The translations under genes were made by a program, and so were the position numbers. Shown here piece after piece: positions 10,031-12,797 of a stretch of DNA of 64,000 nt. The notes beneath the pieces are model-generated. The model had not been told where the DNA came from and searched no databases. It was given only the letters and a program-made list of their open reading frames with translations. How positions within the stretch are numbered: position 1 is the first letter of the stretch; each line of letters opens with the position of its first letter. The stretch is from Candidatus Iainarchaeum sp. (GTDB lineage: Archaea > Iainarchaeota > Iainarchaeia > Iainarchaeales > GCA-2688035): assembly GCA_017610205.1 (NCBI GenBank), contig JAFCCL010000006.1:58553-122552 (forward strand), given 5' to 3'.

Positions 10031-10196
10031 TAAATGCCTAATTTAGCCAGATAATACCTACCTTTAGGGCTGTTTTGAGAAATTTTACAAAATAGTGCAT
10101 CAATTTTTACAATGGAAAGGCTTTAAAATCTGAATGTTTGATAAGATATTTGCTTAATTTTTAATGCTAATTGGGAAAATTTGGGAGGCTATTAGT

Positions 10197-10616
10197 ATGA
10201 CAGACAAACAAAATGACGAAAAAATATTGCCAGAAAATGGTGAAGAAACACCAGGAACAGAGGAAAAAATTGTTAAGGAAGAGGCTGCTGAAGTTGAACG
10301 TGATGATTTGCCTTTCCCAAAAGCAACAATTGTTAACATGCTTAGAAAGCATTTAAGCTCTGGAAAGCAAATTAAGGGCCAGGTAAAGGATGAAATGAAC
10401 CTTTGGCTTGGAAAAATGGTTGAAAGAATTGCCAAAAAAATGGACTCTCACCCTTATGCATATGTTGACGGCGGAATGCTAAGGGATGCAATAGAGCCAT
10501 ATGAAACAGTGCAGGAAATAGAGCTTGAAAAGGAAAGGATAGTAAAGCAGCTTGAAAGCATTAAGGCAGCTTGTGACATTCTGATAAGCGAAGTGGACAG
10601 GAAATTTAGAAAATAG
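10197..10616 (+). CDS. Histone-fold-like protein with acidic N-terminal tail and C-terminal coiled coil
   Basis: DLPFPKATIVNMLRKHLSSGKQIKGQVKDEMNLWLGKMVERIAKKMDSHPYAYVDGGMLRDAIEPYE resembles an archaeal histone fold; heptad-like C-terminus. Confidence 0.45.
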   Translation: MTDKQNDEKILPENGEETPGTEEKIVKEEAAEVERDDLPFPKATIVNMLRKHLSSGKQIKGQVKDEMNLWLGKMVERIAKKMDSHPYAYVDGGMLRDAIEPYETVQEIELEKERIVKQLESIKAACDILISEVDRKFRK

Positions 10617-10619
10617 ACC

Positions 10620-11180
10620 TTATTCTTTTTCAATTGCCTTTGAATATACCTCTGCGGTTCTTCTAAGGCCACTGAGAAAATTGTCTATTTTGCCGCTTTT
10701 TCTGAGGGCTGCATCAAAGCTAAGCAGGCCTGTCCTGCCCATCCCACTGGCAAAAGACTCAAAATTATTGGAAATCCCTTTTCCAAGTTGGAAGGCATCT
10801 ACTCCAAGAGCAAACCTGTCCTTGTAAAAGATTCTTTTGACAAATTTGGCAGAGTCTGGTCCCAATTTCCTAAAAAGCAGGTTAACGCTTGTGCCAAGAC
10901 CCATAAAGAAAAAGGACGTGTTGTTCTTTCCAAGCCCCATTGCAAACTTTACAGGCTGCCTGGCAATCAAAGCAATTATCAGCCCCTTTTGCCGCATTGA
11001 GTACTGCGTTGCCTTGTTTTGCTTTAAGGATTCGGCAAGAATGAATGCTTTTTCTTTTGTGGCAAGGTTTTCCCATTTGCCAGCCTTAAGATATAGCCTC
11101 CTTGTTTTAAGGCGCTTGAAGAAAAAGGCCTGAACTCCCCTTGTTCCAAGCACTCTTCTTTTTTGTTTTGGTTGATGCAT
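10620..11180 (-). CDS. Basic protein of unknown function, in series with the sigma-like gene
   Basis: 186 aa, Lys/Arg-rich; same strand, 72 bp from the sigma-like CDS. Confidence 0.6.
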   Translation of the reverse strand: MHQPKQKRRVLGTRGVQAFFFKRLKTRRLYLKAGKWENLATKEKAFILAESLKQNKATQYSMRQKGLIIALIARQPVKFAMGLGKNNTSFFFMGLGTSVNLLFRKLGPDSAKFVKRIFYKDRFALGVDAFQLGKGISNNFESFASGMGRTGLLSFDAALRKSGKIDNFLSGLRRTAEVYSKAIEKE

Positions 11181-11252
11181 TCTTTATCACAATAAAATAA
11201 AACTTGTTTTTCTATTTATTTAAATCTTTTCTTCCAAAATTTCCACAAACCT

Positions 11253-12161
11253 TTATTTTTTCGGTTGCCGCCAGTGAATTCCGCGCAAAGATAAGGAAAA
11301 TCTTTTTATAATTGCTCCAGCATCTTTTTTGGAAAATGTTTTTCCTTTTGGCAAGCCTATGGCAAGCTTGAATTTTGGATTGTTCAAAAGCTTCAGCAAT
11401 CCTGAATTAAGCAAACTTGAAACCAGCGAAGGACTTATTTCCATGATTTCGGCAATTGCCCTTGTAGGAAGAGATTGCTTTGAAAGAAACCTAAGCCTTA
11501 AAACTCTGGCAGTGCGCTTGTCAAGGTATTGGACAAACGCCTTTGAAAGGTATTCACGCAGGTCATTTGCCTCTGCACGCTTGAGTGGATTGGAATGCCC
11601 TGCCTTTCCTTCAATAAGGTCAAAAAGCTTGCTTCCTTTACCTTTTCCGGTTTCAACAAGTTTATCCCCTGAAAAAGGCCTTATTCCGCGATGTGCAGAC
11701 CTTAGCCTTGAAATTAGGTTAATGGCAGAATCTCTTTCAGCAATTGTTTTTGATTCAAAAACTACTTTGTAAAGCCGTTCAATTCTTTTGTTTAATGCAA
11801 CCTCGTTTGAAATTAATCTCAAAACCTCTTTTGAAAGAGCAATTACCGGAGCTTTTTGCTCAAGCATTGTAATGACTTCACCCTTTGCCCTTGAGTAAGC
11901 AAATGTATTAAATTTAATGCCTTGTGATGGCTCAAACCTTGTATAAGCATCCATTACCCCAATAAAAGCCGCCTGTTTGAAATCATTTTTGGAAATACGC
12001 CCTGATTTTGCTACAGCATTATATTTAAAGAAAAGCCTGTTTGAAACATTGTCTGCAATCTTGTAAGCCTTCTTTACAAATTTTACATCAAATGTCTTTT
12101 GAACTTTCTTTTTCCTTGGTTTTGGTTTTTTTTGTTCACTTGGTTTTTTTTGGCTCATCAT
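11253..12161 (-). CDS. Sigma-70-family-like transcription factor (FliA/SigB-type region 2 + region 4)
   Basis: Region 2-like: NDFKQAAFIGVMDAYTRFEPSQGIKFNTFAYSRAKGEVITMLEQ; region 4-like HTH: RTARVLRLRFLSKQSLPTRAIAEIMEISPSLVSSLLNSGLLKLLN; Lys-rich N-terminus. Confidence 0.8.
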   Translation of the reverse strand: MMSQKKPSEQKKPKPRKKKVQKTFDVKFVKKAYKIADNVSNRLFFKYNAVAKSGRISKNDFKQAAFIGVMDAYTRFEPSQGIKFNTFAYSRAKGEVITMLEQKAPVIALSKEVLRLISNEVALNKRIERLYKVVFESKTIAERDSAINLISRLRSAHRGIRPFSGDKLVETGKGKGSKLFDLIEGKAGHSNPLKRAEANDLREYLSKAFVQYLDKRTARVLRLRFLSKQSLPTRAIAEIMEISPSLVSSLLNSGLLKLLNNPKFKLAIGLPKGKTFSKKDAGAIIKRFSLSLRGIHWRQPKK

Positions 12162-12239
12162 TCTAAAGAATAATTCCTTTTTAAGGATTTATAATCCTTG
12201 CTGTTTCAGCAAAATTCCAAAATTTGCAATACCTGGTTA

Positions 12240-12797
12240 CTACCCCAAAATTGCATTAACTTTTGCTGCAATTGCCCCTTTTGGATTTCTGAGCAGGAAT
12301 CCTTCAATTACTGAAAGATTGTGGCATTTTCTGTTGCAGGAAGCCTTTTCAAAGTCAATTATTACAGGCATTCCTTTTCTTACCAGAATGTTTTTGCCGC
12401 TTCCTGCAAGCTGACCGTGGTCCAGACCAATTTTGTCAAGGACCTTTGCCTGCCTTTGCAGCTCTTTGACAAAACGCTTTAGTCCTGTTTTTGAAGGGCC
12501 CGCAAAAATCCATTCTGAAAAGCACGAGCCTTCAATGAATTCCATTAAAACAATTCTTTTTTCAAGATCTGCATCAAATAATTTTGGGCCAATTCCAACA
12601 CCGTTTGCCTTTTTCAAATTTTCAGATTCCCTTTCAGCCATTTTAAATCGCGTACTGTCATGCCGTTCCATTTTGATTACAAAAAAAACTCCTTTTTTAT
12701 TCCTTGCAAGAAAAAGGTGGCTGCTAAAGCCCCTGTCAATCTTTTTTTCAAAGAAAAGCTTTTTTTTGAGCAGGAATTCTTTCAAAGTTGAATGCAT
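12240..12797 (-). CDS. RIO/Bud32-like predicted serine/threonine kinase (COG2112-like)
   Basis: IDRGFSSHLFLARNKKGVFFVIKMER...LMEFIEG...GLDHGQLAGSGKNILVRKGMPVIIDFEKA. Confidence 0.7.
   Translation of the reverse strand: MHSTLKEFLLKKKLFFEKKIDRGFSSHLFLARNKKGVFFVIKMERHDSTRFKMAERESENLKKANGVGIGPKLFDADLEKRIVLMEFIEGSCFSEWIFAGPSKTGLKRFVKELQRQAKVLDKIGLDHGQLAGSGKNILVRKGMPVIIDFEKASCNRKCHNLSVIEGFLLRNPKGAIAAKVNAILG

Follow-up and report, generated by a model that had tools for sequence, protein, structure and literature searches.

Sigma factors and the TBP/TFB pair are usually regarded as mutually exclusive solutions for the initiation of transcription. The first archaeal sigma factors were reportedly described by Rinke et al. 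in 2013, in single-cell genomes of lineages including Diapherotrites and Nanoarchaeota. That report is mentioned in PMC6126073, and a 2025 paper describes sigma factors as absent from archaea (PMC12316311). Proteins of this kind are already known in archaea; as far as we found in the literature searched, coverage of which is incomplete, their phylum-wide expansion, their turnover and their adjacency to TFB genes have not been described. The protein analyzed here resembles those of Rinke et al. in being a sigma-70 protein of an archaeal genome, and differs in that it is presented as part of a multi-paralogue, fast-diverging and phylum-wide set whose neighbours and turnover are described.

The gene lies in a 64-kb stretch of DNA of Candidatus Iainarchaeum sp. 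(the window, which is the whole stretch analyzed), where a first-pass annotation had placed a sigma-70-like gene between the genes of a kinase and of an unknown basic protein. The three open reading frames were confirmed on the (-) strand at 12240..12797 (kinase, 185 aa), 11253..12161 (sigma, 302 aa) and 10620..11180 (basic protein, 186 aa), separated by 78 and 72 bp, and the sigma-70 claim is borne out by matches to NCBIfam, PHROG and Pfam and by structural matches. The 302-aa protein matches TIGR02479 (FliA_WhiG) with E=4.1e-19 over aa 53-258, TIGR02937 with 2.4e-18 over the whole length and above NCBI's cut-off, and the PHROG sigma family phrog_351 with 3.8e-18. With Pfam, region 2 (Sigma70_r2, 1e-7) is above the gathering cut-off, and region 4 (Sigma70_r4, 3.6e-5) is found half a bit below it; the helix-turn-helix of region 4 is present in co-linear order after region 2. 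By these scores the protein resembles FliA and WhiG without being assigned to subfamily TIGR02479, whose curated cut-off is missed (69.2 bits against 189.6).

The comparison with solved structures was carried out with a two-sequence profile, composed of the window protein and its homologue in a sister species of the same genus (G002), which matches WhiG (6pfj) at 1.6e-20 and FliA (6pmi) at 1.6e-18 across regions 2-4. The AlphaFold model built on two sequences has a low overall confidence (pLDDT 60.6), the helices of regions 2 and 4 being mostly at about 70-84; all 50 of the 50 best PDB matches of this model are sigma factors, with overall TM-scores of only about 0.25 because the model does not fix how the domains are placed relative to each other. 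Judged by profiles, model and alignment to RpoD and FliA, the frame at 11253..12161 is a genuine sigma-70 homologue on an archaeal chromosome.

As in FliA (sigma28) and WhiG, regions 2, 3.2-like and 4 are co-linear: a basic N-terminal tail (aa 1-25) is followed by region 2 (about aa 30-103), a linker or region 3.2-like part (about aa 140-195), region 4 (about aa 205-260) and an extra C-terminal tail (aa 261-302). The D and Q of region 2.2 are shared with FliA and WhiG, and so is, with FliA, the pattern F-x-T-F-A-x-x-R-x-K-G of regions 2.3-2.4; the differences are the divergent linker, the extra basic tails and the archaeal RNA polymerase (RNAP) of the host. TFB, which is single-copy in the same genome, may be a functional analogue on the RNAP clamp, but the window protein has no TFB family match in the searches made and is not a TFB.

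Within the core of regions 2.2-2.4 (aa 60-103; 11853..11984 on the (-) strand), alignment to RpoD and FliA places D60 and Q63 at sigma70 D403 and Q406, and F84 and F87 at F427 and Y430, so that position 430 keeps an aromatic residue; R91 and G94 in regions 2.3-2.4 are as in FliA. At other core-binding positions the protein has A at 407, like FliA, and F at 409. The G002 homologue shares D60, Q63, F84, R91 and G94. A set of 26 archaeal sigma proteins, which share only about 15% identity with the window protein, has its highest conservation in the column that corresponds to D403 (D in 22 of the 26), and the Q406 equivalent is retained in 16, a conservation that is partly biased, the sequences having been retrieved with models rewarding those residues. 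Mean information in this set is 1.04 bits for region 2.2 and 0.75 for the -10-reading region 2.4, and the helix-turn-helix columns of region 4 stay conserved.

The sigma thus has its half of the clamp-binding motif considered in the first-pass annotation (D60, Q63), but the partner residues on the polymerase are missing. In Escherichia coli, residues R275, E295 and A302 of the beta' coiled-coil are required for sigma binding and holoenzyme formation (PMC8321222); by alignment, their equivalents in the single Rpo1 of the window's genome are I, L and H. These residues are not kept, and archaea are reported to lack the flap-tip helix frequently, so that a holoenzyme of the bacterial kind should not be taken for granted; a re-fitted clamp contact and a role away from RNAP are both conceivable. 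The latter would make the protein a sigma-derived DNA-binding repressor or activator, in which regions 2 and 4 serve only as DNA-binding modules. The loss of the Rpo1 partner residues, the conserved helix-turn-helix columns of region 4 and the pI of 10.6 of the window protein are consistent with such a regulator; we nevertheless consider it rather unlikely, given that the best-conserved column is the equivalent of the RNAP-binding D403 and that region 2.2 carries more information than region 2.4. Promoters of the WhiG/FliA type are not enriched in the 64-kb window (69 matches, 75 expected from shuffles). TATA-like boxes are visible by eye upstream of each gene, and were left unused because they do not exceed what shuffled AT-rich sequence gives.

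The genome, which is that of a Diapherotrites archaeon, has one archaeal Rpo1 and one TFB, and the TBP, Alba and thermosome genes that had been reported in the window were confirmed; the sigma protein is therefore an addition to the archaeal machinery and not its replacement. Archaea normally lack sigma factors and some named MAGs of the lineage bear bacterial labels, so that a bacterial contaminant or a misassembled contig had to be considered, but the gene is embedded among flanks that are syntenic across the phylum, and the same junction recurs in a second assembly. Contamination is ruled out for practical purposes, as already stated in the first-pass annotation, because a co-linear homologue occupies this position in the same-genus species G002 and because the closed GW2011_AR10 chromosome of 1,241,428 bp carries another sigma. 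The latter gene (L167, 277800-285800) lies within an apparent purine biosynthesis cluster, with purA, purE, purC, purB and purM as read from the sequence; purA- and guaB-like genes adjoin two of the sigma-like genes of the window's genome.

Gene order around the locus was compared by using a conserved neighbour protein as query, which gave 34 loci, mostly from Diapherotrites and including the closed GW2011_AR10 chromosome. The constant elements are the kinase gene and, convergent to it, a gene at 10164..10616 on the (+) strand encoding a 150-aa protein; this convergent pair is found in 27 of the 34 named Diapherotrites loci, and a sigma gene lies inside it in one of the 27 (L119) and in the window. 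In six members of the window's family, a KaiC-like gene, the divergent kinase and the convergent 150-aa gene follow each other with neither the sigma nor the basic gene in between; the KaiC-like neighbour belongs to the window's family, and the convergent 150-aa gene is found across Diapherotrites. The content of the spot changes from genome to genome: both the sigma and the basic gene in the window, the sigma gene alone in G002, and, in G003, the basic gene with a gene for a 603-aa GLUG protein, the kinase adjoining the basic gene without a sigma. A frameshift or stops interrupt the kinase gene of G003 (L121:9000-9585). In G001 and G002 the basic-protein gene is elsewhere in the genome. Gene order indicates that the spot between the kinase and the 150-aa gene takes up different genes, with the kinase as part of the conserved backbone.

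The basic protein, whose gene is an insertion of its own at this spot, has no family match in Pfam, NCBIfam or PHROG; like its counterpart at L082:3-416 it carries repeated F-A-x-G-L-G-K-N motifs, and its relatives occur in three same-genus genomes. The 150-aa protein has a very conserved C-terminal part of about 100 aa, identical between two species, and can possibly be read as a histone fold plus coiled coil, that is a candidate coiled-coil histone, with no match to a Pfam histone family. Coiled-coil histones are known from Iainarchaeota (PMC11390915).

The kinase had been annotated as RIO-like, which holds at the level of the superfamily (RIO1, 2.4e-6), the closer family being that of the ArkI-type (COG2112) RNA/protein kinases (TkArkI, 7vnx, 2.3e-10). 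ArkI is a tRNA U47 kinase with HGQ and DFE triplets (PMC9095486). The window protein shares the catalytic HGQ (H127-G128-Q129) and metal-binding DFE (D148-F149-E150) triplets, both invariant in G002, together with N160 and a T162-like serine; it is shorter than TkArkI, ending at residue 185, and because the C-terminal RNA-binding YKR motif is missing it is termed ArkI-like and not a proven ArkI. By analogy, its substrate is more likely to be RNA than the sigma protein.

These observations bear on the proposal of the first-pass annotation that the three genes may make up a regulatory unit, possibly an operon, loosely comparable to the bacterial sigma/anti-sigma/kinase modules. The common strand, the short gaps and the kinase-sigma adjacency also seen in G002 would fit it; the kinase, however, is fixed beside the 150-aa gene mostly where there is no sigma, it has the ArkI hallmarks, and G001 and G002 have the basic-protein gene away from it. 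Conserved linkage of the three genes across relatives is absent, and both gene order and kinase family make such a unit very improbable: as far as the sequences indicate, kinase and basic protein are neighbours of the sigma, not partners.

The sigma gene diverges much faster than its surroundings. Between the window and G002 the sigma proteins are 31-32% identical and the flanking proteins 75-90%; the two sigmas still align end to end, including the C-terminal tail that is absent from FliA. In G004, whose flanks are just as similar, the spot lacks a sigma. About five sigma-like genes are present in the window's genome (G000), on contigs C10, C11, C17 (two genes) and C16 (one, interrupted by a stop); the two on C17 (L171, G000:C17:81500-91000) are separated by 0.9 kb and have an IS66 transposase gene as neighbour. 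One syntenic paralogue shared by G000 and G004 is 47% identical, with dN/dS of about 0.42 and dS of 0.94 (NG86; the window sigma pair itself is close to saturation), against about 0.11-0.21 for neighbouring genes in the same comparison; the family is thus constrained but fast-evolving. Synteny of other sigma paralogues is retained between G000 and G004 and also between genera.

This divergence affects detection. When GTDB contigs were scanned directly at the protein level with the window sigma as query, there were no matches, probably a consequence of its rapid divergence. On the G002 locus, tblastn with the window sigma left the homologue unreported at 1e-5, and HMMER-based searches find it at about 1e-31; profile methods were relied on over tblastn. 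A phage or plasmid origin was considered and set aside, the best phage matches being 24-31% identical over at most half of the query, with one plasmid match. IMG/VR yielded no confirmed relative, in a weak search with two short peptide patterns from fast-evolving parts.

Alternatively, the gene might be transient, laterally gained cargo of bacterial, phage or mobile-element origin, of hardly any use to the host or none, and drifting in a place that is prone to insertions and enclosed by two conserved genes. Its patchy presence, the low identity between the G000 and G002 sigmas beside well-conserved flanks, the unrelated insertions at the same spot, the interrupted paralogue on C16 and the IS66 transposase near those on C17 all agree with this; yet the frame of 302 aa has stayed open and its GC and codon usage are normal, the paralogue dN/dS is below 1, other paralogues retain synteny even between genera, and no close phage, plasmid or viral-contig relative was found. 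We regard such cargo as unlikely.

Sigma-like genes are not confined to this genome. Pfam Sigma70_r2 matches were found in 23 of 97 relatives and in none of four archaeal control genomes, and TIGR02937 was above NCBI's cut-off in 15 of 64 Diapherotrites genomes. Among good genomes, sigma-70 region 2 is enriched in Diapherotrites (8 of 26) with respect to another archaeal phylum (4 of 92; Fisher p=5.6e-4); a third phylum has matches in 12 of 107 genomes. Two loci place a sigma beside TFB: in G005:C12 (L085:2119-3669) a sigma-like gene of 200-210 aa follows TFB on the same strand at a distance of 12-42 bp, the same sigma type being near a PIN-domain-like gene instead in G000 (C11) and G004 (C10), and in another archaeal phylum an ECF-like sigma abuts a convergent TFB gene (L220:3061-4587, on the 275-kb contig G152:C1). 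In a further genome binned as archaeal, three RpoD-like sigma genes occur within 7 kb (L209, G181:C20:10000-25000), one encoding a protein of about 761 aa with two region-4-like parts; this striking cluster was set aside, since its contig could not be shown to be archaeal.

The reading that we favour, and to which we give about an even chance, is that of a laterally acquired, fast-diverging alternative sigma docked on the clamp of the archaeal RNAP; its bases are the homology over regions 2-4, the archaeal location, the sister-species homologue, the coexistence with Rpo1, TFB and TBP, and the region 2.2 motif that is kept. The enrichment in Diapherotrites, the paralogues in the same genome, the conserved D403 column, the constraint on the G000-G004 paralogues and the sigma genes next to TFB also speak for it; the unmatched Rpo1 residues, the missing enrichment of WhiG-type promoters in the window and the patchy presence, with no sigma at this spot in G004, speak against it. 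A bacterial group-3 (FliA/WhiG-like) sigma-70 gene would have entered Diapherotrites by lateral transfer and would now be part of the fast-evolving set represented by the sigma-like genes of this genome. Region 2 would dock on the clamp coiled-coil, regions 2.3-2.4 and 4 would contact DNA, and the protein would direct or modulate the transcription of a few genes beside TBP/TFB or in competition with them, without replacing them. A wider proposal, which we hold only tentatively, is that initiation in Diapherotrites is hybrid, with bacterial-derived, fast-diversifying sigmas re-fitted to the clamp, choosing promoters alongside TBP/TFB and in some species co-expressed with TFB.

A lineage with several sigma-like genes, in which no column is better conserved than that of the RNAP-binding aspartate, would reveal if an initiation factor from bacteria is able to adapt to the archaeal enzyme. 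The sigmas of Diapherotrites would also be a natural system in which to see how TFB and other factors share the clamp coiled-coil.
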